Below are positions 13,746-41,682 of a DNA stretch of 41,682 nucleotides, piece after piece. The DNA comes from a virus. Below the pieces are notes generated by a model. The model was not told the origin of the DNA. It worked only from the letters and a program-made list of their open reading frames with translations, and made no database searches. Where the stretch lies: IMG/VR virus record IMGVR_UViG_3300045738_000609, positions 1 through 41,682 of that record. One strand, written 5' to 3'. The translations under genes and the position numbers were made by a program. Each line of letters begins with the position of its first letter. Position 1 is the first letter of the stretch.

Positions 13746-15473
13746 ATGGCTTTTGAAATGTTTGACGGTGGGACGTCAGGGCAGCGGGGTCGCTACAATC
13801 CGTACCAGCTAGAGGCTTTCCAAAATCTCGGTCCCGGACACAATAGCCCTTATAATCGTCCGGGATCTCCTGGGTACGCCACTCCGCAGGCGTTCCAGGG
13901 CGGTGGTCCGCAGTTCGAAAACGTCGGGCAACCTGGGAATCAGGTGCAGTTCGCCGACCGGCCGGACCTTCCGAAGGGCTACTCGACCTCAGCAGGCTAC
14001 TCCCGCAGCGTGCAGGATGGCAGCCCTTGGCTAGGGCAGCAGCCGCATGCGCTCGACGTCTACGATCTTGCGAACGAAAATGCGCGAACGCGCATGAACT
14101 ACTTCGGCGGGCCGCTGTCTACCGGAATGTCCGGTCTCGGCATGGGCGCGCAGCAAGCCGCGGGTCGGCAACTACAGGGTGGACCTGGGCAGGGCTACTT
14201 CGGCCAATCGATCGGCGGAGGACATCTCGGCCAGGGAGCTGGTGCCGGCCTGGGCTACTACGACGACGCGTTGTCTGGCGCCAATGTTGCGGGAGGTGCA
14301 GGCGCCGGGCTCGGGTTCTACGGCAGCACGGGTGCTGGTGGGTTCCTGCAGCAGGGTGCGGGTGCGGGCCTCGGGTTCTACGACGAGGCGCTTTCTGGTA
14401 GCCGGCTAGACCAGAGTTCCAACCCCGCTCTTCGAGGACTAGCCGATCGCGGCGCGGCAGACATCCTGCGTCAGTACTCAACCGTCGCGGCGCCATCCGT
14501 TTACCACAAGGGAAACATCGGTTCCGGCGCAGAGCAGAACCGCATGGCCGCAGCGAACATCGGCCTGGGTGACGCGCTGGGTCGCAACTACGACAATGTC
14601 TTCGGCGCCGACTACGGTCGCGAGCGTGGCTACATGGAGCAGGCGCGGATGGCTGCGGCAGGGCAATTCGGGTCTCAGTACGGTAGGGAGCGCGGGCTCA
14701 TGGAGAACGCGCAGATGGCGCAGGCCCAGCAGTACGGCTCGCAGTTTGGTCAAGAGAGAGGATTCACGGAGCAGGCCCGGAGGGCCGCTGCCGGGCAGTT
14801 CGGATCTCAGTACGGTCGCGAGCGCGGGTTCCAGCAGGACTCGGCCGGCATGTACGGGTCCGAGCAACGCGCGAACATCGGCCAGGCGCAAGGCATCGGC
14901 GCGTACGGTCGCGGCGTGTCGGAAGAGCAGCGAGCTGCACAGCAGGCAGGATTTGACTGGACTCGCGACGAGCCCTGGCTCCGACAGCAGCGCTTCCAGC
15001 AAGGGATCATGGGCGCCGGCTACGCGGGTAACGTCAGCTACTCCGAGAGCCAGAATGCGGACTGGTCGAGGGCCCCCAAGAACAACAGCGGTGGCACGAG
15101 CACAGCGAACTGGTTGGGCCTGGGCATCGGCGCCCTCGGCCTCTTTTCGTCACGAGCTGTCAAGGACCACGTCGATGACGTGAACGGCGAGGCTTCGCTC
15201 GACGCGATGCGCAACCTGCAGATTGCGATCTGGAAGTACAAGCCTGAGGTCTCCGACAAGAACGGCGACCGCGCGCACCACATGGGCCCGTACGCTGAGG
15301 ACTTTGCTCAGATCCTCGGGCTCGGTGACGGCCACTCGATCGCGTTCATCGACATGATCGGCTTCACCATGGCAGCGATGCAGGGTGCCGCTCAGAGGAT
15401 CGAAGCACTCGGTAATCGAATTGCAGAACTCGAATCACTCGTGCTGCCAAAGGCGAAGCTCGCGGAGGCGTAA
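13746..15473 (+). CDS. repeat-rich virion protein with C-terminal S74 intramolecular chaperone domain
   Basis: A 575-residue protein. Residues 1-130 are Gly/Pro/Gln-rich. Three GAGAGLG(Y/F)Y blocks follow (about 165-215), then tandem 22-residue repeats (about 290-365; consensus YGRERGxMEQARxAAAGQFGSQ). A WLGLGIGALGLF hydrophobic stretch precedes the S74 domain: SSRAVKDHVDDVN (about 467-479), IWKYKPE, HHMGPYAEDFAQILGLGDG, then a terminal coiled coil (RIEALGNRIAELESL). S74 domains normally trimerise and self-cleave from fibres at the Ser near the domain start; here the Ser-Ser-Arg and following Lys are present. The N-terminal part is unlike a fibre and more like an internal or tail protein. Confidence 0.75.
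   Translation: MAFEMFDGGTSGQRGRYNPYQLEAFQNLGPGHNSPYNRPGSPGYATPQAFQGGGPQFENVGQPGNQVQFADRPDLPKGYSTSAGYSRSVQDGSPWLGQQPHALDVYDLANENARTRMNYFGGPLSTGMSGLGMGAQQAAGRQLQGGPGQGYFGQSIGGGHLGQGAGAGLGYYDDALSGANVAGGAGAGLGFYGSTGAGGFLQQGAGAGLGFYDEALSGSRLDQSSNPALRGLADRGAADILRQYSTVAAPSVYHKGNIGSGAEQNRMAAANIGLGDALGRNYDNVFGADYGRERGYMEQARMAAAGQFGSQYGRERGLMENAQMAQAQQYGSQFGQERGFTEQARRAAAGQFGSQYGRERGFQQDSAGMYGSEQRANIGQAQGIGAYGRGVSEEQRAAQQAGFDWTRDEPWLRQQRFQQGIMGAGYAGNVSYSESQNADWSRAPKNNSGGTSTANWLGLGIGALGLFSSRAVKDHVDDVNGEASLDAMRNLQIAIWKYKPEVSDKNGDRAHHMGPYAEDFAQILGLGDGHSIAFIDMIGFTMAAMQGAAQRIEALGNRIAELESLVLPKAKLAEA
14613..14840 (+). repeat. tandem 66-bp repeats inside the S74-domain gene
   Basis: Units begin at 14613, 14679, 14745 and 14811, each exactly 66 bp apart, encoding a 22-residue repeat. 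Three units are full; the fourth diverges after about 24 bp. Units 2 and 4 share a run of about 36 bp with only a few substitutions, while unit 3 has drifted (TTTGGTCAAGAG in place of TACGGTCGCGAG). Confidence 0.85.
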
Positions 15474-31936: not shown

Positions 31937-32125
31937 TCAGGCGAGATCCTTCTTCAGTTCACGCAGCCGCCTCATTGCAGCCGCGTATGCCAACTCACGC
32001 TTCCACTCCCACCCGGTCGAACTCTCGATGGGCGAGTCGTCGTCCTCGCGCACCCTCCACCACCAGACGCGCCCGCTCGTGGGCTCGCCTTTCAGGCGGA
32101 GGGCTTCGATCATGTAAATTTTCAT
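31937..32125 (-). CDS. small unknown protein
   Basis: 62 residues from ATG 32125, overlapping the methyltransferase stop (ATGA). The composition (VWWWRVREDDDSPIESSTGW then KRELAYAAAMRRLRELKKDL) suggests a small beta segment plus a basic helix. It may be an accessory of the methyltransferase by coupling; function unknown. Confidence 0.6.
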   Translation of the reverse strand: MKIYMIEALRLKGEPTSGRVWWWRVREDDDSPIESSTGWEWKRELAYAAAMRRLRELKKDLA

Positions 32126-33618
32126 GCCGCCAGTTGCTCCTCGATCACAGCCTGCGCCACCTGCGGGCACACGCTGTTGCCGACCATCGCGGTCTGCTGT
32201 GTCTTCGTGAAGCCCCTGCCGTAGAGGTCCACGTCGATCTGGTAATCCTCGGCGAACCCCTGTGCCCGGTACAGCTCCCGCGGCTGCAGCATGCGCATCC
32301 CGATGTCGACGATCCGGTACGGGGTCCCGAGCACTTCGACCAGGGCGAAGCGATCCTTCGTCGTGACCGTGTCGAGCGGGTTCTTGACGCTGTGCGCCAC
32401 CCCGGTGCCGTAGTACTTGATCAGGAAGGCATTGACCTGGGCACTGCGGTCAGTCGCTCCCGCCGGCACGAGCAACGCCTTGGCCAGGGCCTGGGAGTCG
32501 CGGCTCGTGATCGTGCCCACCGTCTGGCGTATGTCGTTCCCGGTCATGCCCCCGTAGTGCTTGATCAGCCACGGGATCACGAGGCCGTGGTGCGCCTTCG
32601 TCATCACCGTACCGAGTGGCTTCTCGATCGACTGCCCCCGGAAGCGGCTGCTCGCATTGCTGCAGTTCACCGTGAACGGGGCGAGCAACGGAACCACGAG
32701 GTTCTTGTCGTTCGTTGCGCACACCGTCGCCAGCGGCTGATGGATCGACTGCCCGCGGAACAGGCCCGCACCCTTGCCCGGTACCAGCCCGGCTCCGGTG
32801 CGCTTGCTGTAGTGCCCGTGCCTCACGATGTACGGGTCACCCCCGGTCACGAACTTGGGGATCCCCATAGCGATGCGGTTCATGGTCGCTGGGGCGAGCG
32901 GGCGCTTGCGATTGAAGATCGACTTGCACTCGTAGTCGAAGTCCAGCACCGCGTGAGCTGGCACCCAGGGGAGCAGCCCATTGCCCTTCTTCGAGTGCGT
33001 GGCGTCCGGGAACGTGATCTCCGTGCGGTCCCTGCGTGCGACGATGAACAGCCGCTTCCGCGTGGTCGGAGTCCCGTGGTCCGCGGCCATGATCGAGCGG
33101 TACTCGATCGCGTACCCCTGGCCACGCAACTTGCCCAGCCAGATCTTGAACGTGAGACCCTTCTTGTCTGGGTCCGGCACGTACCCGCCCTTGGCTGCGT
33201 CCCAGCGGAGCGGGCCCCAGTCCTGAAACTCCTCGACGTTCTCGAGTACGAACATGCGGGGCTTGACGGCCTTGGCCCATCGCAGCGCCGCCCACGCCAG
33301 GCCCCGCACCTTCTTGTCCACGGGCACCGTGCCCTTGGCTCGCGAGAAGTGCTTGCAGTCCGGCGACATCCAGACCAGACCCACCGGCAGCCCACCGCAG
33401 GCCACCCGTGGATCGACCGCCCAGATGTCCTCGACGTAGTGCCGAGTCTCCGGGTGGTTGGTCTCGTGCATCCGAATTGCGTGTTCGTTGTGGTTAAGCG
33501 CGATGTCAACCGGTCGCCCGATTGCCGCTTCGATCCCGCTGGTGGCGCCGCCACCTCCGGCGAAGCAGTCGATCACGAGTTCGCCTTCGAACCCTCGTTG
33601 CGTTACTTGCATGGTCAT
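32122..33618 (-). CDS. C5-cytosine DNA methyltransferase
   Basis: A 498-residue enzyme transferring methyl from SAM to cytosine C5. Motif I IDCFAGGGGATSGIE (16-30); motif IV is MSPDCKHFS with catalytic Cys88 (PDC instead of PPC); motif VI LENVEEF (125-131); motif VIII GTPTTRKRLFIVARR (182-196); motifs IX-X RMLQPRELYRAQGF (442-454) and MVGNSVCP (478-485). The region 285-430, expected to recognise the target, has four diverged PL.TV.T....LV-type repeats. The start is ATG 33618 with GAGGAG; a hairpin abuts that site. It would protect phage DNA from host restriction. Confidence 0.9.
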   Translation of the reverse strand: MTMQVTQRGFEGELVIDCFAGGGGATSGIEAAIGRPVDIALNHNEHAIRMHETNHPETRHYVEDIWAVDPRVACGGLPVGLVWMSPDCKHFSRAKGTVPVDKKVRGLAWAALRWAKAVKPRMFVLENVEEFQDWGPLRWDAAKGGYVPDPDKKGLTFKIWLGKLRGQGYAIEYRSIMAADHGTPTTRKRLFIVARRDRTEITFPDATHSKKGNGLLPWVPAHAVLDFDYECKSIFNRKRPLAPATMNRIAMGIPKFVTGGDPYIVRHGHYSKRTGAGLVPGKGAGLFRGQSIHQPLATVCATNDKNLVVPLLAPFTVNCSNASSRFRGQSIEKPLGTVMTKAHHGLVIPWLIKHYGGMTGNDIRQTVGTITSRDSQALAKALLVPAGATDRSAQVNAFLIKYYGTGVAHSVKNPLDTVTTKDRFALVEVLGTPYRIVDIGMRMLQPRELYRAQGFAEDYQIDVDLYGRGFTKTQQTAMVGNSVCPQVAQAVIEEQLAA

Positions 33619-33630
33619 GCGGTACTCCTC

Positions 33631-33644
33631 GGGGCGCGAGCCCC
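33631..33644 (-). promoter_or_regulatory. leader hairpin abutting the methyltransferase ribosome binding site
   Basis: On the minus strand GGGGC-TCGC-GCCCC is followed directly by GAGGAGTACCGC and the ATG at 33618. The same arrangement, with different stem sequences, precedes four other right-arm genes. It could tune ribosome access or protect the mRNA 5' end. Confidence 0.5.
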
Positions 33645-33651
33645 ACTAGTG

Positions 33652-33852
33652 TCAAGCCTTCTTGGCCTTGCGTGCGTTAGCCTCGATCTTGTAGTACAGG
33701 CCCTGCCGGGAAATTCCCAGCGTCTCCGCGGCCTTGGACTTGTTCCCCTTGTGGTGGCGCAGCACGCTAGAGATCACGTGCCGCTCCACGTTGCCCATCA
33801 GGAGCGCGAGGCTATTGCCCTTGATGTCGGGGTGCTTGCCCAGGATCAGCAT
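33652..33852 (-). CDS. Fis-type helix-turn-helix protein
   Basis: A 66-residue protein. Residues 23-58 (VERHVISSVLRHHKGNKSKA, then AETLGISRQGLYYKI) match the HTH_8 domain of Fis and the C-terminus of NtrC-type activators. It is a bare DNA-binding domain preceded by about 20 residues. ATG 33852 has GGAGG upstream; a longer upstream frame is the antisense/read-through of the neighbour. Start and upstream stop overlap (TAATG). It probably regulates phage transcription or DNA architecture. Confidence 0.75.
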   Translation of the reverse strand: MLILGKHPDIKGNSLALLMGNVERHVISSVLRHHKGNKSKAAETLGISRQGLYYKIEANARKAKKA

Positions 33853-34139
33853 TAGTTGGTCCTCCTCCGCTCGGTGTATATCCACTTGACAGGTAGTGTC
33901 AAGCGGTGTTGACCCTTTCCGTCGCAAGTCCTGCACTTCAGGCCCCCTGCGTACCCACCCTTGCCGTCGCACGGGGAGCAGGTTGTCCACCCCTCCGCCA
34001 TTGCGGCGTCGAGCGGAGCCGGCTCGGTGGTCTCGACCTCGACCACCTCCGCCTCCTCCAGGGGGGAACGAATCTCCGCCGGTTCCTCGGAGATAGATTC
34101 CCCTGCCCTCAGTCGTGCCAGTGCCTCTGCTGCTGTCAT
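33852..34139 (-). CDS. DnaJ-type CxxCxGxG zinc-finger protein
   Basis: A 95-residue protein. It opens with AEALARLRAGESI, a peptide shared with two other proteins of this arm; an acidic linker (EEAEVVEVETTEP) follows. Near residues 55-76 there are two DnaJ-like repeats, CSPCDGKGG and CRTCDGKGQ, expected to bind zinc. The start is in GGAGGGCAAGTGATGAC context, overlapping the previous stop. Likely a small protein-binding zinc module; no J domain is present. Confidence 0.7.
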   Translation of the reverse strand: MTAAEALARLRAGESISEEPAEIRSPLEEAEVVEVETTEPAPLDAAMAEGWTTCSPCDGKGGYAGGLKCRTCDGKGQHRLTLPVKWIYTERRRTN

Positions 34140-34348
34140 CACTTGCCCTCCCGCTGGTACTCGATCATGCACATGCGATCGTTCGCGACCCACTTGCCAG
34201 GTGCTACGCCTCGCTCGACGCCGTACTCCTGGCTGATCCAGGTCAGGAACGCGATCCTCTGATCGTTGTCCATCTTGCGCCACGCGTTCTTGCCGTCTGC
34301 CATCCTTCTCGGGTGGCCGTCCGGTAGTGCTTGTGCTTTTCCGCCCAT
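34139..34348 (-). CDS. small unknown protein
   Basis: A 69-residue basic protein (WRKMDNDQRIAFLTWISQEY; KWVANDRMCMIEYQREGK). GGAGGACTGAGCA precedes the ATG at 34348, in the GCAATG context common to this arm. It is coupled to the downstream gene by TGATG. No family recognised. Confidence 0.55.
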   Translation of the reverse strand: MGGKAQALPDGHPRRMADGKNAWRKMDNDQRIAFLTWISQEYGVERGVAPGKWVANDRMCMIEYQREGK

Positions 34349-34360
34349 TGCTCAGTCCTC

Positions 34361-35167
34361 CTACGCGACCTTGCGGTCGAGTTGCAGCGCGGCTTGCTGG
34401 ATCGGCGCCTCAATGCGCCGTGCCAACTCCCGTGCCCGTCCTTCTCCGTGCGACTCACGCAGCCTGCAGTGGTTGCGGGCCACGTTCGTCGAGTCCGCGG
34501 AGTCCGCCCACGCGACATCCTTGAAGACTCCAAGGCCCCGCATCAAGTGGATCCACGGTCGCCTGCCATGCATTGCGTCCATCGCCTCACGTGCCACCCG
34601 GACCTTCTCCATCCGCTCCAGGTAGCCCGCTCGGTTGCCCTGCACGTCGTACTCCTGGCAGCTCCCCATGCCCACGAAGTTGCAGAGCTTGAGGTGCATC
34701 GCGAGCTGGTCGAACGACTCGTTCATGTGCCAGATAGACATCGTCCGCGCCGGGTACTTCGCGAGCCCTTCGCGCAGTGCCCACGACATCTCGACCTTGT
34801 TCTCGTCCTCGGTCCCTCCGATCACGTCCGGGATCACAGCCACGGCCTGTGCGCACCGGTCCTGCGCGTCATTCGCCCAGGCCCAGAACTTGTCTCGATC
34901 GATCGCCCCATTGCCCTTGCGCCAGTGTGAGAAGGCGCCGTTGTCGAGTACGAGAATCTGATCCTCGCCCACGAGTTCGATGCACCGGTCGAGTTGCTCC
35001 GGTGCCGCGAACGACACGCAGAACGACCCACCTGCCAGCGTGTCCAGCAACCTGATCGGGGTGATCGGGGTGCCGTGCACGATCCTGCGACCGCCGTCGA
35101 GCGCGATCCCACTCTCACCCCCGCCGCGCAATGCGGCGAGGGCCTCCTCGGGTGACTGCTTGATCAT
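34361..35167 (-). CDS. DpdA-like (TGT-fold) 7-deazaguanine DNA-modification protein
   Basis: A 268-residue protein with a TIM-barrel, tRNA-guanine-transglycosylase-like pattern. It shows LVLDNGAFSHW (72-82, compare LDSGGF of DpdA), VIPDVIGG (111-118), CNFVGMGSCQEY (162-173), IHLMRGLG (206-213) and ADSADSTNVARN (221-232), the same order of blocks as DpdA proteins, which exchange guanine in DNA for a 7-deazaguanine such as preQ0. It is shorter than typical cellular DpdA but in the range of compact phage forms. It opens with EEALAALRGGGE, a peptide shared with two neighbours. No QueD/QueE/FolE-like gene is seen, so the base precursor would come from the host. Assignment is by motif memory, not by search. 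Confidence 0.72.
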   Translation of the reverse strand: MIKQSPEEALAALRGGGESGIALDGGRRIVHGTPITPIRLLDTLAGGSFCVSFAAPEQLDRCIELVGEDQILVLDNGAFSHWRKGNGAIDRDKFWAWANDAQDRCAQAVAVIPDVIGGTEDENKVEMSWALREGLAKYPARTMSIWHMNESFDQLAMHLKLCNFVGMGSCQEYDVQGNRAGYLERMEKVRVAREAMDAMHGRRPWIHLMRGLGVFKDVAWADSADSTNVARNHCRLRESHGEGRARELARRIEAPIQQAALQLDRKVA

Positions 35168-35415
35168 GGGGTCACCTCGCCCGGGTGGTCGCGGTCAGGC
35201 GGCTCCGAGCAGTCGTCCGTGTCCTCGATGTGCGCCCGGCCGACCTTCAGCCCGTTGCTGTCGCACAGCGTGATGTTGAATATCCCGCTGCCGTCCACCG
35301 ACGCGTCCCACCTGCGGAGACGCCTGGCCTCGTCCGCGAGTATCCCCGCGACCTCGGTCTCCAAGTGCTCTGCAAACGCGTCGTTGCTCGTGTCGATCTC
35401 GATCGTGTACTTCAT
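35164..35415 (-). CDS. small acidic unknown protein
   Basis: An 83-residue protein (MKYTIEIDTSNDAFAEHLET; GIFNITLCDSNGLKVGRAHI) with a beta-helix-beta pattern and AGGAGG before the start. It overlaps the DpdA-like start by 4 nt (ATGA), so the two are made together; an accessory role is possible but unproven. Confidence 0.6.
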   Translation of the reverse strand: MKYTIEIDTSNDAFAEHLETEVAGILADEARRLRRWDASVDGSGIFNITLCDSNGLKVGRAHIEDTDDCSEPPDRDHPGEVTP

Positions 35416-35424
35416 GTCTACCTC

Positions 35425-36381
35425 CTACGGCCGCAGCGCGGCCACCTTGCCTACCTTGCCACCCATCGCACGTATGGCGTCTCTCGCCATCGCCGGATCG
35501 GTCACATCCTTCAGCCACTTCCAGTACCACCGCCCCATTGCCATGCCGCGAGCGCCCTCCCGCAGCTTCGCCTGCGCACCCTCCTCGAGTGCGAGCGCTC
35601 GCTTGAACAGCTCAGGCTGCTCGTTGCGCAACTCGACCACCTCCTCAGGCTGCATCGCCGGGCAGAAGAAGCAGCAACTCTTGCGTGGCACCGGCAACCC
35701 CGCGGCCTCGATGATCGCCGGCAGTGCCTCGCGAGCGAGCCCCCAGTCCTGCAGCAGGTAGGTCTCGTCGCACGTGCTGACCTCCCATTGCTCGGCCAGC
35801 GGCTTGAGCCCACGCGAGGCCCGCTCCTCGATGCCCGCCCGGTGTCGCGACCGGACCTTGCGTGCCTTGTCTGCCCGCTTCCGATCACGCACGCCATCGT
35901 CGTACCCGATCACATGCAGGATCTTCTCGCCTCTCGCGGTAGCTGCGAGGCCAGGTGCCCACTGCCGTTCGTACTTCACCTGCACCGCGGCCTTGAACAC
36001 GAGCGCACACGAGTGGAACCCGCCCCCGTACGCCAGCGACGGGAACGTCCCGTTGGTGAGGCACTTGGTTTCGAGCGAGTCGTACGTGACCTTCTTCGGT
36101 TCGTACTTGCACACCGTGACTCGCGGGAAGCCCACGCTCTCCAGCCACACGTCGAACAGCTTGATGTACTCGTACGTCTCCGGCCTCTCCCCGCCCGTGT
36201 CTGCGAACAGGATCAAGTCCGGTCGCATCTTGCGATTGTGCATCTCGACCAGCATTGCAGTCGAGTCGAGCCCTGCCCCGTAGCTCACGATGATGAGCTG
36301 GCCGGGCTTGTACACGTCCCGTGCTACCACGATCTCCTCCGGCCCCGATCGCAACTGGGCCAGCGCTTGTCTTGCGTCCAT
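35425..36381 (-). CDS. PP-loop ATPase, PAPS-reductase-like family
   Basis: A 318-residue protein. The PP-loop SYGAGLDS (33-40) binds ATP; LILFADTGGERPETYEY (56-72) is the typical PAPS-reductase/adenylyltransferase second block. Later there are GYDDGVRDRKRADKARK (159-175) and a Cys cluster KSCCFFCPAMQ (234-244) that could bind zinc or an Fe-S cluster. Family members reduce PAPS, transfer sulfur or, like QueC, adenylate carboxylates. It lies one small gene upstream of the DpdA-like gene and shares the QALAQLRSG N-terminal peptide with it, so a role in nucleobase modification is attractive but inferred. GGAGGTATAGGCA precedes ATG. Confidence 0.72.
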   Translation of the reverse strand: MDARQALAQLRSGPEEIVVARDVYKPGQLIIVSYGAGLDSTAMLVEMHNRKMRPDLILFADTGGERPETYEYIKLFDVWLESVGFPRVTVCKYEPKKVTYDSLETKCLTNGTFPSLAYGGGFHSCALVFKAAVQVKYERQWAPGLAATARGEKILHVIGYDDGVRDRKRADKARKVRSRHRAGIEERASRGLKPLAEQWEVSTCDETYLLQDWGLAREALPAIIEAAGLPVPRKSCCFFCPAMQPEEVVELRNEQPELFKRALALEEGAQAKLREGARGMAMGRWYWKWLKDVTDPAMARDAIRAMGGKVGKVAALRP

Positions 36382-37040: not shown

Positions 37041-37228
37041 AGCCCTCGCTCCTTCGCCACGCGCTTGAGGATGCGTTGCCGCAACTCGATGCGCTTTTGC
37101 GTGTGCTCCTCCAGCTCGAACTCTTCGAGCTTCTCCGCGCAGAACTTCAGCTCGCGCTCGACACCCCAGTCACTCAGGGTCGCCGCGACTCGCGTCCACG
37201 CGCTTTCCAGGTCGCTCATTGCACTCAC
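37037..37228 (-). CDS. small helical unknown protein
   Basis: A 63-residue protein dominated by charged helices (LKFCAEKLEEFELEEHTQKR). GTG 37228 is preferred because it overlaps the previous stop (GTGA) and has GGAGG 7 nt upstream; ATG 37219 lies three codons later in GCAATG context. Function unknown. Confidence 0.6.
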   Translation of the reverse strand: MSAMSDLESAWTRVAATLSDWGVERELKFCAEKLEEFELEEHTQKRIELRQRILKRVAKERGL

Positions 37229-37968
37229 TGCGTCACCTCCGGGGCGCGGTGTGTCGCGCCCGGTCCATGGACATCCAGCACGAGCGAGGGCCCTGTGCCC
37301 CCGTTACATGCGATCGGACATCCGATGCATTGCACTTGCGACCGCTCCGGCACTGCCGGACACGGCTTCTCGCCTGGCAGACGCGCATCACCTGGCGCCT
37401 TCGTGCGAAACACACGCCAGCCTTGCGACTCCGCCCAGTACTTCTCGTCCGGCGTGTCACACGAGGCCATGAGCAGCGACTGCCAATCGGCCCGCTCGCG
37501 AGGCTCCATTGTCTTCCACTGATGCGTGTACCCCGTCCACCGGGGCGAGAGCTTGGCCACTGCTGCGACTCGCTCGAAGGGCACCGCGACCGGGTCCCCG
37601 TATGCGCCCAGACGTGAGGGCCTGTCGAAGTCGTCGAGCGTGGCCGGCGGATAGATGCCGCGCGCCCATGCTTTCCACACCATCGCCACGGCCTTGCCGA
37701 TCTCCAGGTAACACTGGCGCTCGACCCAGGCCCCCGTCGCGGGATCCAGGTACCCACGCAGCGCGCAGTTGCCGCACATTGCGCTATCGAGGCCGGTCCT
37801 GATCGCCTCTTGCGGGTGCATGTCTGCGCGCTCGATCCAGAGCTGAGCCATCGGCCCTGTCTTGCCATTGCGCGAGTCGTTCACGAGCCCCGTGAGCACC
37901 GCGAAGATCGGTGCCCCGTTCAACATACTCGGACCCTCGTATACGAGAACCCCATTCGGTCTTGCCAT
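37225..37968 (-). CDS. conserved-type phage/plasmid protein with Cys clusters (DUF7227-like)
   Basis: A 247-residue protein. The start ARPNGVLVYEGPSMLNGAPI, then CGNCALRG, QCYLEIGKA, SRLGAYGDPVAVP, TGYTHQW and a C-terminal CIGCPIACNG follow a family I know only as uncharacterised and common in phages. The conserved RLGAYGDP block and the Cys pairs suggest metal binding, perhaps an Fe-S or zinc enzyme. ATG 37968 has GAGGAGTACGA with a hairpin abutting it. It is the first gene after the promoter cluster at 38016-38080. Confidence 0.65.
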   Translation of the reverse strand: MARPNGVLVYEGPSMLNGAPIFAVLTGLVNDSRNGKTGPMAQLWIERADMHPQEAIRTGLDSAMCGNCALRGYLDPATGAWVERQCYLEIGKAVAMVWKAWARGIYPPATLDDFDRPSRLGAYGDPVAVPFERVAAVAKLSPRWTGYTHQWKTMEPRERADWQSLLMASCDTPDEKYWAESQGWRVFRTKAPGDARLPGEKPCPAVPERSQVQCIGCPIACNGGTGPSLVLDVHGPGATHRAPEVTQ

Positions 37969-37980
37969 TTCGTACTCCTC

Positions 37981-37996
37981 AAGGCCACATGGCCTC
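37981..37996 (-). promoter_or_regulatory. leader hairpin abutting the ribosome binding site of the 37225-37968 gene
   Basis: On the minus strand GAGGCC-ATGT-GGCCTT (5 Watson-Crick pairs and a G-U) is followed immediately by GAGGAGTACGAA and the ATG. Position matches the hairpins before 33618, 40038, 40333 and 40658, but the stem sequence differs. Confidence 0.5.
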
Positions 37997-38015
37997 ACAA
38001 TTGGCTGTCAACACC

Positions 38016-38080
38016 ACTTTACACTACTTTGGCAAAGTTGTCAAACAGCCTTTACAATCAGGGGGTTAGCCCATTGTCAA
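38016..38080 (-). promoter_or_regulatory. tandem minus-strand early promoters with an operator-like palindrome
   Basis: On the minus strand TTGACA (38044-38039) is followed after 17 nt by TAAAGT (38021-38016), a good sigma70-type promoter. The perfect palindrome ACTTTG-G-CAAAGT (38026-38038) fills its spacer, so a bound repressor would block it. A second TTGACA (38080-38075) has only a weak -10 (TTGTAA at 17 nt). A third TTGACA (38011-38006) lies downstream, and the TGTAAAG-N5-TTGACA arrangement occurs twice. They would drive the operon starting with the gene at 37968. Confidence 0.6.
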
Positions 38081-38217
38081 GTCTTACTAGACACTCTCCT
38101 CAGGAGTGTCGTTTGCACCTGCGTGTCGCCATCATCCGCATCCGTGCGTATATGCTCGGGATTCGGGAAGCGCTCTGCCTCCAGGCTCGCGAGATCCTCG
38201 AACACGTACTCGTCCAT
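38077..38217 (-). CDS. 46-residue acidic protein
   Basis: The product starts MDEYVFEDLASLEAERFPNP and ends in a basic RRVSSKT tail. The ATG at 38217 is in GGGCAATGG context with only a GAGAG-type ribosome binding site. The stop lies within the -35 box of the outermost promoter. The gene is plausible from strand, spacing and composition, but unconfirmed. Confidence 0.45.
   Translation of the reverse strand: MDEYVFEDLASLEAERFPNPEHIRTDADDGDTQVQTTLLRRVSSKT
38090..38110. terminator. hairpin at the 3' end of the upstream right-arm operon
   Basis: A perfect 7-bp repeat GACACTC/GAGTGTC with a 7-nt loop lies inside the last codons of the 38077-38217 gene, just before the early promoters. There is no U tract. 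It may be a weak terminator insulating the promoters, or a second operator. Confidence 0.35.
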
Positions 38218-38253
38218 TGCCCACTCTCGTGCCCACGAGAGCCAGTGGTACTG

Positions 38254-38430
38254 TCAGTCGGGTGCGAGCGGGCCCGCCTCCGGCTTGCGCGCGGCCAGCG
38301 TGACCGCGCACATCTCCACGAACACGAGGCTTGGAAACTCCAGCAGCCCGCGCTCGTGCCCGCCTCCGCACTGGCCCACACGACACTCGTGCGGGATGCA
38401 GTGCGCGAGGATTGTCTCGCGTTCGGTCAT
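38254..38430 (-). CDS. 58-residue Cys/His-containing small protein
   Basis: The product begins MTERETILAHCIPHECRVGQ with further Cys21 and His25, so a zinc site is possible, followed by LLEFPSLVFVEMCAVTLAAR. GGAGGACTTGGA precedes the ATG at 38430, and the start overlaps the upstream stop (ATGA). It is short but well supported by its start signals. About 36 nt separate it from the next gene. Function unknown. Confidence 0.6.
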   Translation of the reverse strand: MTERETILAHCIPHECRVGQCGGGHERGLLEFPSLVFVEMCAVTLAARKPEAGPLAPD

Positions 38431-38624
38431 TCCAAGTCCTCCGATGTGATGGGCGCGAGCCCGTGAATCACGGATATCTCAATCGCGTCGCCACCGATGC
38501 AGGTCGCCATCGCACGTACTTCGCGCTGCTCCGATGTCGTCTCGATCGCGTGCGCCAGGCGCATGATGCTCACCATCACGCGTCGCAAGCGCTCGGCCTT
38601 CGTCCCGCGTCGTGGATCGTCCAT
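38427..38624 (-). CDS. small unknown protein
   Basis: 65 residues from ATG 38624 (GGGGCAATGG context); a longer upstream frame overlaps the previous gene and is not used. The sequence is one long helix region (AERLRRVMVSIMRLAHAIET) plus a short C-terminal strand (GDAIEISVIHGLAP). Coupled to the following gene. Not recognised. Confidence 0.55.
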   Translation of the reverse strand: MDDPRRGTKAERLRRVMVSIMRLAHAIETTSEQREVRAMATCIGGDAIEISVIHGLAPITSEDLE

Positions 38625-38632
38625 TGCCCCGC

Positions 38633-39064
38633 TCACAGGTACACCCTCCCGAACGCATCCGAGAACGCCTTGATGCATGCGCGATCGATGATCTCCAGGT
38701 GAAACCTCACCACCGATCCTCGCTTGCGCTTGCCCGTGGTCTTGGATCCCTCGTTCTGGTCCGTGAACATGCGCTCCCGCGACTCCGTGCCCAGGTGTAC
38801 GCGTAGCTCGAGTGCGTGCACCGGCATGTCGCGAGCGACCGCAGCTCGAATGATGTGCTGCCGCGCCATTGGAACCAGCGCAGTCAGGTCACGCGAGCGC
38901 AGGTGCCCGATGAACCCGAGCGCGGGGATGTCCGCGAACCCGATCCGCGCGAACCCCACCGGCTCGAACGCGTAGGGCGCGTCCGTCCCGAACTCGATGC
39001 TCTGCGACGCGCTCATTGCGCGAAGCAGTCTGTCGCTCTCGTTTTCCAGTCTCGTGACGCCCAT
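38633..39064 (-). CDS. unknown protein
   Basis: 143 residues from ATG 39064 (GGAGG upstream, TGATG overlap with the previous stop). The sequence includes RLENESDRLLRAMSASQSIE, AFEPVGFARIGFADIPALGF and a basic stretch (EGSKTTGKRKRGSVVRFHLE) near the end, suggesting a small nucleic-acid-binding alpha-beta protein. No known family recognised. Confidence 0.6.
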   Translation of the reverse strand: MGVTRLENESDRLLRAMSASQSIEFGTDAPYAFEPVGFARIGFADIPALGFIGHLRSRDLTALVPMARQHIIRAAVARDMPVHALELRVHLGTESRERMFTDQNEGSKTTGKRKRGSVVRFHLEIIDRACIKAFSDAFGRVYL

Positions 39065-39315
39065 CAAATCGCCCTCCTGTAGGTCTCGCGTGATTCTTCG
39101 TGCTTCGCTCGCAGCCACTCCACGAGCGCAACGTGCATCGCGATGTCCGGCTCATTGTCGTCGTCGCGCGCCTCCTCCAGCCACGCGTCCGCCAGCTCCT
39201 GCGCCCGCTCGATCGCCTCGGGGCGGCTGCCCTCCAGGCGCACGAGACCCGTCAAGATCAGGTCCGCGGCTGCTGCCGCATGCTCGATGTCTGTCATCCG
39301 CCATCTTCCAGTCAT
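39064..39315 (-). CDS. small acidic helical protein
   Basis: 83 residues from ATG 39315 (GGAGGAGCGAGA upstream). Two helices (DIEHAAAAADLILTGLVRLE; AIERAQELADAWLEEARDDD) and a Lys/Glu/Arg-rich end. It could be an anti-repressor or inhibitor-like small protein, but nothing specific supports this. Confidence 0.55.
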   Translation of the reverse strand: MTGRWRMTDIEHAAAAADLILTGLVRLEGSRPEAIERAQELADAWLEEARDDDNEPDIAMHVALVEWLRAKHEESRETYRRAI

Positions 39316-39521
39316 TCTCGCTCCTCCTTCGGTACCCACCCAGGCTCGAAGAACCCGCGCCGGTCCATCTCGTCGAACACCTTCTCGCCGCGCGCCCTGT
39401 GCCCGCGGTACATGCAAAACTCCTCGTGCATTCCCAGCTCATTGTCCGAGTACTTCGCGAGCGGGTAGCGCACGTTCATGTACGGCTGCGGGATCGTGCC
39501 CGTCTTCTCGTTGCGGCTCAT
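39312..39521 (-). CDS. small unknown protein
   Basis: 69 residues from ATG 39521, which overlaps the zinc-ribbon gene's stop (ATGA) and has GGGGGTGC upstream. The sequence (IPQPYMNVRYPLAKYSDNEL; MHEEFCMYRGHRARGEKVFD) has no clear motif. Confidence 0.55.
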   Translation of the reverse strand: MSRNEKTGTIPQPYMNVRYPLAKYSDNELGMHEEFCMYRGHRARGEKVFDEMDRRGFFEPGWVPKEERE

Positions 39522-39697
39522 TGCGCACCCCCTTCGTTGCGTTCTTCGAGATAGGCGAGTGCGCCGCATTTCGGGCACTCTCCGGCAGGAACCGTCCCAC
39601 CCGGATCGAGTCGCTCGGACAGTCTGGGAACGTCCCCCGGACATTTGATTTCCGACTCGGGGCCAGTCCAGTCGCAGTCATCGCAGGCCGCGGTCAT
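39518..39697 (-). CDS. 59-residue zinc-ribbon protein
   Basis: CDDC (5-8) and CPKCGALAYLEE (from about 41) form a rubredoxin-like zinc ribbon of the kind often found in phage small proteins; another Cys lies between. ATG 39697 is in GCGCAATGACC context. It is coupled on both sides by 4-nt overlaps. Possibly modulates a host protein; not known. Confidence 0.6.
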   Translation of the reverse strand: MTAACDDCDWTGPESEIKCPGDVPRLSERLDPGGTVPAGECPKCGALAYLEERNEGGAQ

Positions 39698-40038
39698 TGC
39701 GCACCCCCTCGCGCGGCCACTGCCTCGCGCACGATCTCGTGTGCCTTCGCGACCCACTCCTGCGAGTACCCGAACCCTGCGAAGTGCTTGTACTTGCGGA
39801 TATGCGAGTCCCCGCGATTCGGCTCGCGCTCGACCACGTTCGGCAAGCAACCGTGCGCGCTCACCCAGGCGGCTGCGAACAGCACCTCGTCGCAGTCCTC
39901 CTCCAGATACGCGTAGCTCCCATTGCGGTACGAGAAGCTGCTGGGTCGCACGCCCAGCGCGTCGATCACCTCAAGCGGCACGCGCAGCCACCCGTGGCCT
40001 GGATCCGTGAAAAACTGGAATTTCTGCGTCTTCGTCAT
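39694..40038 (-). CDS. unknown protein
   Basis: 114 residues from ATG 40038 with GAGGAGTACGC upstream, directly after the structured leader. The frame is open upstream through the leader but that part is non-coding by composition. The sequence contains DPGHGWLRVPLEVIDALGVR and NGSYAYLEEDCDEVLFAAAW; I recall a similar GHGWLxVP..ELxxLG pattern in unnamed phage proteins. No catalytic motif assigned. Confidence 0.6.
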   Translation of the reverse strand: MTKTQKFQFFTDPGHGWLRVPLEVIDALGVRPSSFSYRNGSYAYLEEDCDEVLFAAAWVSAHGCLPNVVEREPNRGDSHIRKYKHFAGFGYSQEWVAKAHEIVREAVAARGGAQ

Positions 40039-40138
40039 TGCGTACTCCTCGGGGCATTGCCCCACTTGCGAACCGATTAGCCGGTTCGGTCTCGCGCACC
40101 CGCCCGTCTGGGCGCAGGCCGCGAGGCCGAACTTGCTA
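40039..40138 (-). ncRNA. structured leader cassette A
   Basis: The complete spacer from the stop of the 40136-40333 gene to the start at 40038. Minus-strand order: GGCCTCGCG, an inner hairpin CGCCC-AGAC-GGGCG, CGCGAGACC closing the outer stem with one mismatch, then GAACCG-GCTAAT-CGGTTC, then GGGGC-AAT-GCCCC and GAGGAG. Cassette B at 40334-40436 is a diverged copy with different sequence but preserved pairing in the inner and last stems, which argues for RNA function. It may control translation, processing or termination. Confidence 0.6.
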
Positions 40139-40333
40139 GCGCCACACGCTCGTGCCTTCGAGCGTCTCGCCGCGCACCTCGCCACTCGAAATCCACGTCA
40201 CGCTCTCGCCTGCCGCGCGACCCTCCTGCTGCAGCGACTGCCGCCGATAGTGCTGGTACGTGAGGCGAGCCTCGCTGACGCTCTCGCCGTCGTACACGGT
40301 CCCGATGTTGCCCACGATCACCTCTTGCTGCAT
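40136..40333 (-). CDS. small unknown protein between the two leader cassettes
   Basis: 65 residues: MQQEVIVGNIGTVYDGESVS, then LTYQHYRRQSLQQEGRAAGE, then a beta end (ESVTWISSGEVRGETLEG). I recall similar small phage proteins with VGNIGTVYDG..E as strongly beta and unnamed. The start is in ACGCAATG context after GGAGGAGG, with the cassette-B hairpin just upstream. Confidence 0.6.
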   Translation of the reverse strand: MQQEVIVGNIGTVYDGESVSEARLTYQHYRRQSLQQEGRAAGESVTWISSGEVRGETLEGTSVWR

Positions 40334-40436
40334 TGCGTCCTCCTCCGGGCATTGCCCGACTTTGCGAACCGATCAGCCGGTTCGGTCTCGCGCACCAGCG
40401 CACCCCCATGCGCCGGCCGCGAGGCCGAACTTGCTA
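40334..40436 (-). ncRNA. structured leader cassette B
   Basis: A diverged duplicate of cassette A, running from the stop of the 40434-40658 gene to the start at 40333. The outer stem and GAACCG-GCTGAT-CGGTTC are kept; the inner hairpin is GCGCA-TGGGGG-TGCGC instead of CGCCC/GGGCG, and the last stem is CGGGC-AAT-GCCCG instead of GGGGC/GCCCC. Changes on one side are matched on the other. GGAGGAGG follows the last hairpin. Confidence 0.6.
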
Positions 40437-40658
40437 CCAAGCCTCCGCTTGGATGTCCCTGCGGTGGTCATTGCGCAGCTTCACGAGCCTCCGAGTCCAG
40501 GCGACCGCGCCCTTGACCGTGCTCGGCTTGTACCCGTCCTCGTGCCACGCTTCGGCGAGGTCGCCCACGCTGTAACACTCGACGATCTCGTCCCACCCGT
40601 CTGCGTAATTCGCTTCCGCGTGGTCGAGCACCTTCCGTGCGATTTCGTGCTGATTCAT
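40434..40658 (-). CDS. small unknown helical protein
   Basis: 74 residues from ATG 40658: MNQHEIARKVLDHAEANYAD, EIVECYSVGDLAEAWHEDGY, TVKGAVAWTRRLVKLRNDHR. I recognise the general pattern of small helical phage proteins but no family. GGAGGAGTACGAC precedes the ATG, with a short hairpin (40671-40683) abutting it. Confidence 0.6.
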   Translation of the reverse strand: MNQHEIARKVLDHAEANYADGWDEIVECYSVGDLAEAWHEDGYKPSTVKGAVAWTRRLVKLRNDHRRDIQAEAW

Positions 40659-40670
40659 GTCGTACTCCTC

Positions 40671-40683
40671 CGGGCATTGCCCG
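40671..40683 (-). promoter_or_regulatory. leader hairpin abutting the ribosome binding site of the 40434-40658 gene
   Basis: CGGGC-AAT-GCCCG on the minus strand is followed directly by GGAGGAGTACGAC and ATG 40658. It equals the last stem of cassette B without the upstream stems, so it is the minimal form of the repeated leader. Confidence 0.5.
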
Positions 40684-40686
40684 ATG

Positions 40687-40764
40687 CTAGAAACCAAACC
40701 TCTGCCAAATCGCGTACGCGAGCCAGGCGAGCGCGATCACGGTCACGAGCGCGGCGCCCGCCAT
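40687..40764 (-). CDS. 25-residue transmembrane peptide
   Basis: The product begins MAGAALVTVIALAWLAYAIW and ends QRFGF: a single hydrophobic span with a short basic end. Its ATG overlaps the stop of the upstream 52-residue membrane protein (TGATG), which supports translation by re-initiation. Such peptides can act as mini-holins or membrane regulators; the role here is unknown. Confidence 0.5.
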   Translation of the reverse strand: MAGAALVTVIALAWLAYAIWQRFGF

Positions 40765-40922
40765 CACCACCACCCTGCCCAACGCCCGAACATGGCGGTC
40801 ATCATCGCGAGCCCGCACCCGAGCGGGACCACGACCGTGAGCCTGCGCAAGCGCTCCTCGCGCGCCATTCGCGCGATGTACCGGTTGCGTGCGCTGTCGT
40901 ACGTGATGCCTTCTTCAATCAT
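40764..40922 (-). CDS. 52-residue single-span membrane protein
   Basis: The product begins MIEEGITYDSARNRYIARMA, continues with a basic cytoplasmic-type stretch (REERLRRL) and then a hydrophobic span TVVVPLGCGLAMMTAMFG, ending in a Trp-rich tail. The start is in AGGGCAATG context and overlaps the upstream stop (ATGA). Paired with the 25-residue peptide it looks like a tiny membrane module, possibly for lysis or exclusion; this is inference. Confidence 0.5.
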   Translation of the reverse strand: MIEEGITYDSARNRYIARMAREERLRRLTVVVPLGCGLAMMTAMFGRWAGWW

Positions 40923-41035
40923 TGCCCTGCCTCCATGGCTGCGCGGAGCGCCGCCAACTCGCGAGCACGTGCCAGCTCGCGCAAGCCCGTGACCGGGGTG
41001 GTGCTCGTTCCGAACGGTACGCTTGCGACCGTCAT
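40919..41035 (-). CDS. 38-residue helical peptide
   Basis: The product begins MTVASVPFGTSTTPVTGLRE and continues as an Ala/Arg/Leu helix (LARARELAALRAAMEAGQ). GAGGAGTAGGGCA precedes the ATG at 41035, and its stop overlaps the next start. Too short for family assignment. Confidence 0.45.
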   Translation of the reverse strand: MTVASVPFGTSTTPVTGLRELARARELAALRAAMEAGQ

Positions 41036-41039
41036 TGCC

Positions 41040-41267
41040 CTACTCCTCAATCCGATACGCGAGCTGTCGCTCACGCAGGTTTACGTTCAGGTGAAACCGA
41101 ATCGCAGCCTTGTGCGCCCGGATGCGCCCCTGCTCGAAGCGCCCACGCGAGGTGCGCATGCGCTCGCGCATCTCGTTCATTGCCCCCGCGAGCGCGACCG
41201 GCGTCATGCTCGCGTATGCCCGCCTGAGGGCCGTGCGGTCTGCGTACTTCGCAGCTTTCTTGCCCAT
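41040..41267 (-). CDS. small basic protein
   Basis: A 75-residue Arg/Ala-rich protein (MGKKAAKYADRTALRRAYAS; MNEMRERMRTSRGRFEQGRI; RAHKAAIRFHLNVNLRERQL), probably binding nucleic acid. GAGGAGAATTGGGCA precedes the ATG. Not recognised. Confidence 0.55.
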   Translation of the reverse strand: MGKKAAKYADRTALRRAYASMTPVALAGAMNEMRERMRTSRGRFEQGRIRAHKAAIRFHLNVNLRERQLAYRIEE

Positions 41268-41347
41268 TGCCCAATTCTCCTCAAGGCAGCGCGCCCTCGC
41301 GCCTGCCTGCCTGCGTCCGTGCGTCGTGCGCGGACACGCATACCCGT

Positions 41348-41395
41348 GTGTGCGGATATGCGTGACCGCACACGGGCGCCTGTGTGGGGCGCCCG
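41348..41395 (-). promoter_or_regulatory. overlapping strong inverted repeats in the last intergenic region
   Basis: Two 8-bp inverted repeats lie between the edge gene and the 41040-41267 gene: GTGTGCGG/CCGCACAC (41348-41355 with 41366-41373) and CGGGCGCC/GGCGCCCG (41373-41380 with 41388-41395). They abut at 41373. They could form tandem hairpins in the transcript between the two genes; no U tract follows, so leader structure or partial termination are both possible. The rest of 41268-41415 shows nothing gene-like. Confidence 0.4.
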
Positions 41396-41415
41396 GGTGC
41401 GTCCTGCGTGAGCGC

Positions 41416-41682
41416 CTATGCGAGCAGGCTCACGTAGCTCACGAACCGTGCCGCGAGGGTGCGCTTGGGTGCGACGTGGTGCGCATCCGAGGCGCGGTAG
41501 CCCGCGTCGCCACCGCTGCTCATTGCGTCAGCCGGGAATTGCCGTGCATGCGCGGCCGCCTTGCGGGCCTCCGAGCGCGCCTTCCCGGCGAGCATGCGCT
41601 TGGTCGCGGCCTTCTGCGCGGGGGTGCGTTCGCGCTTGGTCCCGGGCGCCTTCGCGGCCTTGGGCGCCTTGGCGCGCTTGGC
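41416..41682 (-). CDS. partial gene for a Lys/Ala/Pro-rich basic protein (5' end beyond the window)
   Basis: The minus-strand frame is open from the window edge to the stop at 41416 (88 residues seen). It begins AKRAKAPKAAKAPGTKRERT, an AK-repeat like histone H1 or bacterial histone-like tails, continues KAARKAAAHA-like and ends with HHVAPKRTLAARFVSYVSLL. A DNA-binding, nucleoid-associated role is plausible. The N-terminus is missing. The last part contains an internal Met in GCAATG context that might itself be a start. Confidence 0.55.
   Translation of the reverse strand, partial: AKRAKAPKAAKAPGTKRERTPAQKAATKRMLAGKARSEARKAAAHARQFPADAMSSGGDAGYRASDAHHVAPKRTLAARFVSYVSLLA

Follow-up and report, generated by a model that had tools for sequence, protein, structure and literature searches.

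Diverged stop-to-start spacers and hairpins abutting Shine-Dalgarno sequences in the leftward gene block of a bacterial virus genome

Near the right end of a complete IMG/VR virus record (41,682 bases, analysed in full and termed the window), which belongs to a virus infecting bacteria, two spacers between small genes resemble each other far more closely than the genes surrounding them. This locus raises the question of whether the spacers hold an RNA structure that has been kept by selection and, if so, what such a structure would do to the transcript, or whether merely a piece of DNA was copied.

Genome setting and the two spacer copies

The portal protein encoded in the window matched the Pfam family SU10_portal and is about 32-34% identical to portals of Pseudomonas podoviruses; SU10 we take to be a member of the phiEco32-like phage group. 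Structural genes are directed rightward and small genes leftward in the part between about 31 kb and the right end, and as the spacers lie inside this leftward block, all of their elements are read on the minus strand. In the phiEco32-like phage 7-11, early genes are transcribed leftward from the right end as a long polycistronic mRNA, and an intergenic hairpin mapped ahead of a gene start was argued to have a role in mRNA processing or stability (PMC8948821).

Several other features of the window were recorded. Within 32122-36381 (minus strand), matches to queuine tRNA-ribosyltransferase and PAPS-reductase-like phage families were found near a C5-cytosine methyltransferase, so that these genes possibly form a DNA modification set. 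The 66-aa protein of 33652-33852 (minus strand) was judged by eye to resemble a Fis-type helix-turn-helix (KSKAAETLGISRQGLYYKI), and upstream of its gene a TTGACA box is located inside the inverted repeat TTGACA-ctacc-TGTCAA. The stretch 37969-38090 (minus strand), directly ahead of gene 37225-37968, is AT-rich with several TTGACA-like boxes and includes a good leftward sigma-70-like promoter match at 38044-38016. Tandem repeats of 60 and 66 bp occupy 14235-14843 (plus strand) inside gene 13746-15473.

As the initial annotation had proposed, the two spacers (hereafter cassettes) are diverged copies, with 89% identity over ungapped columns and two small indels of 1 and 2 nt (Table 1). Their homology starts exactly at a TAG stop codon and ends exactly at the next ATG, while the coding flanks, 60 bases on each side, are merely 25-28% identical and the flanking proteins (74, 65 and 114 aa) lack any mutual similarity. 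Because the homology is bounded by stop and start and the neighbouring genes are unrelated, the repeated unit is a stop-to-start module rather than a duplicated gene. A third spacer precedes the 74-aa gene (start 40658); it likewise opens with TAGC and possesses the terminal hairpin and the Shine-Dalgarno sequence (SD), without the long hairpin described below.

Simple alternative identities were discarded: a coding function, since the 1-nt and 2-nt indels leave no common frame throughout the copies (alignment read); a tRNA or tmRNA, none of which was detected; and an integron attC-like site, for which the GTT/AAC order is wrong (direct reading).

Table 1. Coordinates of the spacers, hairpins and palindromes discussed in the text.
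Feature	Position	Strand	Remarks
Spacer copy 1	40138-40039	-	TAG stop to next ATG, exact
Spacer copy 2	40436-40334	-	TAG stop to next ATG, exact
65-aa orphan gene	40136-40333	-	between the cassette copies; direct repeats, 295-bp unit
Long hairpin, copy 1	40078-40138	-	61 nt, 24 bp; begins at UAG stop of gene 40136-40333; UAGC:GCUA pairing
Long hairpin, copy 2	40374-40436	-	63 nt, 26 bp; begins at UAG stop of gene 40434-40658; UAGC:GCUG pairing
Palindrome CGAACCG-N6-CGGTTCG, copy 1	40069-40088	-	first half is 3' arm of long hairpin
Palindrome CGAACCG-N6-CGGTTCG, copy 2	40365-40384	-	same arrangement as copy 1
Start hairpin GGGGC-AAU-GCCCC	40051-40063	-	abuts SD GAGGAG (40045-40050), gene 39694-40038
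Start hairpin CGGGC-AAU-GCCCG	40346-40358	-	abuts SD (40340-40345), gene 40136-40333
Start hairpin CGGGC-AAU-GCCCG	40671-40683	-	abuts SD, gene 40434-40658; minimal form in short spacer
Start hairpin AGGCC-AUGU-GGCCU	37982-37995	-	1 nt ahead of SD, gene 37225-37968; other stem and loop
Start hairpin GGGGC-UCGC-GCCCC	33631-33644	-	abuts SD, C5-methyltransferase gene 32122-33618; other loop
Longer start hairpin AGGCAGGCGCGAGGGCGCGCUGCCU	41284-41308	-	1 nt ahead of SD, gene 41040-41267

Predicted fold and recurrence of start hairpins

Each cassette was predicted to fold into a long hairpin followed by about 14 nt of linker and a second hairpin of 13 nt, the 3' arm of which touches GAGGAG; the initial annotation's observation that the cassette ends directly at the SD is thus exact. 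Compared with shuffled sequences, the folding z was -2.3 for one copy (6 of 200 shuffles folded equally well) and -4.2 for the other (0 of 200). Placed on a common structure, none of the 11 substitutions between the copies breaks a pair. Two pairs are changed on both sides (in the common register 28:35, C-G to A-U, and 79:91, G-C to C-G), two others are changed on one side to G-U (29:34 and 1:63), and the 2-nt insertion corresponds to two extra pairs. The G-U changes retain pairing in the sense RNA only and do not pair as a DNA palindrome. It had been claimed that an inner stem and the last stem were exchanged on both arms; what stands of this claim is compensation at two pairs and not across two entire stems. 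The identical outer arms are without covariation information.

As the two sequences compared also supplied the structure tested, all P values for it are optimistic: 8e-4 for the lack of broken pairs and 4e-5 if the two double changes are included (both on random columns), and 0.025 for the compensation when the changed columns are kept and the letters alone are randomised. In the direction from copy 2 to copy 1, random letters folded equally well in half of the trials.

The arrangement of a short hairpin against the SD recurs in the window. Under a strict test (perfect stem of 5 or more pairs, loop of 3-8 nt, end 0-1 nt before GAGGAG), applied to every GAGGAG in the window, such hairpins were found at the starts 40658, 40333, 40038, 37968 and 33618, with the longer hairpin at 41267; as background, such stems end at 1.7-1.8% of positions. 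The three hairpin-SD elements with AAU loops were recovered by a DNA pattern search of the window at a chance expectation of 0.64. With one automatic gene caller used throughout, start hairpins were counted in the window at 5 of 14 starts not translationally coupled to the preceding gene. In other phage loci they precede 3 of 241 such starts, including 0 of 38 in loci above 55% GC (Fisher P 1.2e-5 for 5 of 14 versus 3 of 241). Counting the AAU family once, they were found at 3 of 5 leftward non-coupled starts versus 2.3% (P 1.2e-4), and among coupled starts at 1 of 16. The criterion was chosen post hoc, with examples already in view, and the enrichment is stable under most settings of stem, loop and gap and lost at stems of at least 6 pairs. 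A test of abutting hairpins by energy alone was uninformative, because nearly any GC-rich site folds, and was dropped in favour of the strict stem test.

Between 36.3 and 41.3 kb (minus strand) the context GGGCAATG or CGCAATG is common to many leftward starts; the AAU start hairpins contain GGGCAATG and hence may have arisen by duplication of a gene start. Ahead of gene 41040-41267 lies a 148-nt leader (41268-41415, minus strand) with dense inverted repeats including GGGCGCC-N7-GGCGCCC, and a 157-nt stretch of this leader region was predicted at -82.9 kcal/mol.

These observations bear on the possibility of a recent DNA duplication without selected function, in which the repeats would result from the gain of the 65-aa orphan or serve as footholds for gene-swap recombination, and the hairpins would be chance products of a region with 64% GC. 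That the 65-aa gene sits precisely between the copies, in a unit of 295 bp, would be explained in this way, 89% identity is compatible with a recent copy, high GC yields many chance folds, and compensation reached only P 0.025 with columns fixed. However, the substitutions left every pair intact, start hairpins of different sequence occur at three further genes, and none was present at the non-coupled starts of other GC-rich phage loci, for which reasons we regard a functionless duplication as unlikely. The hairpin-spacer pattern is real and unusual, and the selected RNA structure suggested in the initial annotation is supported, at the level of sequence, by the absence of broken pairs, the two compensated pairs, the changes that pair as G-U only and the repeated hairpin-SD geometry.

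Candidate functions of the spacers

Most likely, the spacers would tune the cutting, stabilisation or translation of a shared mRNA. Our preferred reading, still tentative at a probability of roughly 0.45, is that they act as intercistronic RNA elements which, for processing or stability, cut or insulate the polycistronic early mRNA transcribed leftward in a podovirus. One long leftward early transcript would carry both spacers as sense-strand RNA elements. The minimal unit would be the short hairpin against the SD of genes not translationally coupled to the preceding gene, and the two cassettes would extend it by a hairpin of 24-26 bp opening on the upstream stop codon. This long hairpin may offer a double-stranded substrate of the RNase III type, or a barrier protecting the 3' end of the upstream message, and the short hairpin may become the protected 5' end of the downstream message beside an intact ribosome-binding site.

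RNase III acts on irregular double-stranded RNA of roughly two helical turns, from about 22 bp upwards, and the predicted long helices of 24 and 26 bp are of sufficient length, so that processing of the RNase III type would fit. In T7, intercistronic RNase III sites are long irregular hairpins between early genes on polycistronic mRNA. The cassettes, with their predicted long intercistronic hairpins as candidate cleavage sites, are similar and differ in that they add an SD-abutting hairpin and start on the stop codon.

Two other functions named in the initial annotation were not borne out. Termination is not supported: there is no U-tract, a terminator scan of 37900-41682 (minus strand) found none, and the start hairpins are followed by GAGGAG. 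For control of translation by hiding or exposing the SD, predicted accessibility was the same as with shuffled upstream sequence, and the SD is not contained in the short hairpins; the idea that the hairpin keeps the SD open was rejected too, accessibility being no better than in shuffles. Thus, neither an SD switch nor simple insulation of the SD is supported.

Translation could also be addressed by a phage protein binding next to the SD, on the AAU-loop hairpin, and jointly repressing three downstream genes in the manner of T4 gp43 acting on its own mRNA. The translational operator of gene 43 in T4 and RB69 is likewise an RNA hairpin adjoining the ribosome-binding site of the regulated gene (PMC3014915), and an identical AAU loop is present at 40038, 40333 and 40658. 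Yet that operator serves one gene with one bound hairpin (PMC3014915), whereas here several genes have varied loops (AUGU at 37968, UCGC at 33618), a known candidate binder is lacking and the SD itself is outside the hairpin, which makes joint repression of this kind very unlikely.

Further options arise from the palindrome CGAACCG-N6-CGGTTCG, which lies 30-31 bp upstream of the start codon. As its first half doubles as the 3' arm of the long hairpin, the two structures are mutually exclusive, and in the folding model the palindrome hairpin forms once the first 10-15 nt are blocked, for example by a ribosome positioned at the stop codon. The palindrome could accordingly be modelled as a switch or as a DNA operator. 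As a switch, it may be part of a phage-wide RNA system of SD-abutting hairpins on non-coupled early genes, some with a stop-anchored long hairpin: a terminating ribosome would cover the 5' arm of the long hairpin, the 3' arm would change over to the second hairpin, and translation of one gene would set the processing or fate of the message of the next. We consider this extended system quite unlikely.

As a DNA-level operator, the palindrome would be bound by a phage protein and the RNA fold would be a by-product. Its arms are identical in both copies, no other site in the window lies within 1 mismatch, and similar start-associated inverted repeats exist in phages of Clusters K, O and EG, those of Cluster K having been read as DNA sites or promoters. 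However, a simple consensus scan found no sigma-70-like promoter within or near the cassettes, and there are just two sites, both within a gene run. Moreover, the start hairpins keep their geometry and vary in sequence, as is expected for RNA and not for a DNA site, and the G-U substitutions pair in RNA only. A DNA operator is therefore doubtful, and processing or insulation of the shared mRNA remains the reading we favour.

Search for relatives and comparison with known systems

Among the collections searched, the cassette is present in one genome only. Exact DNA patterns retrieved no further instance from IMG/VR or species genomes, blastn yielded none in phages apart from one chance-level match and none in plasmids (copy 1 as query), and a covariance model gave no further copy in a scan covering 164 loci and 18 whole records. 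The gene that follows copy 1 (39694-40038) encodes a protein with hundreds of distant homologues among viral contigs, and the loci surrounding the 80 best are devoid of the cassette. The nearest relative found is a fragment of 5.9 kb from the structural region, with 66% identity in the portal; in the 21 kb of the second nearest (portal 42%), start hairpins of this kind are absent. Because no close relative is contained in the collections, the empty search says little on the spread of the element.

The statement that no named motif matches the cassette holds for Rfam, where none of 4227 families scored above its curated threshold, but start-associated repeats with upstream inverted repeats have been described in other phages (PMC3203893, PMC7302621). 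The closest analogues are the SAS/ESAS start-associated repeats of actinobacteriophages and the 5'-leader hairpins of T4. SAS/ESAS are known from Cluster K mycobacteriophages and Cluster EF Microbacterium phages (PMC3203893, PMC11373665, PMC7302621), with the conserved 13-mer GGGATAGGAGCCC at the ribosome-binding site in Cluster K and the variant GGGAAAGGACCCC in Cluster EF. As in these, a repeated element covers the SD of some non-structural genes, all in the same orientation and in intergenic gaps, and part of the copies are extended directly upstream, in Cluster K by inverted repeats. Unlike SAS/ESAS, pairing is kept in the cassettes despite changes, and the SigA-like promoter of ESAS is without counterpart in a simple consensus scan. 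The Cluster K 13-mer had 10 matches in the window at up to 3 mismatches, compared with 13 expected, none of them at the starts concerned; according to the Cluster K authors, RNA pairing is in general not supported by the changes seen in ESAS arms, and promoters in ESAS were proposed later. For both reasons the cassettes are not members of SAS/ESAS and are better described as new start-associated repeats with an RNA-type constraint.

A 5' hairpin is reported to stabilise the gene 32 mRNA of T4 (cited in PMC8948821), and this leader and the CUUCGG intercistronic hairpins of T4 resemble the elements described here as short stable hairpins between genes or upstream of ribosome-binding sites. Unlike the CUUCGG hairpins, the five strict start hairpins have no C(UUCG)G loop; their loops are AAU, AUGU and UCGC.

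Start-associated phage repeats have so far been without known function and were read as DNA sites where they were examined. The similar layout reported here, in which pairing and geometry are kept while the sequence drifts, allows an RNA role to be put to a direct test in a small system. Should the elements prove to set mRNA ends or stability, they would represent compact modules, running from stop to start, for the expression of polycistronic messages in high-GC bacteria.
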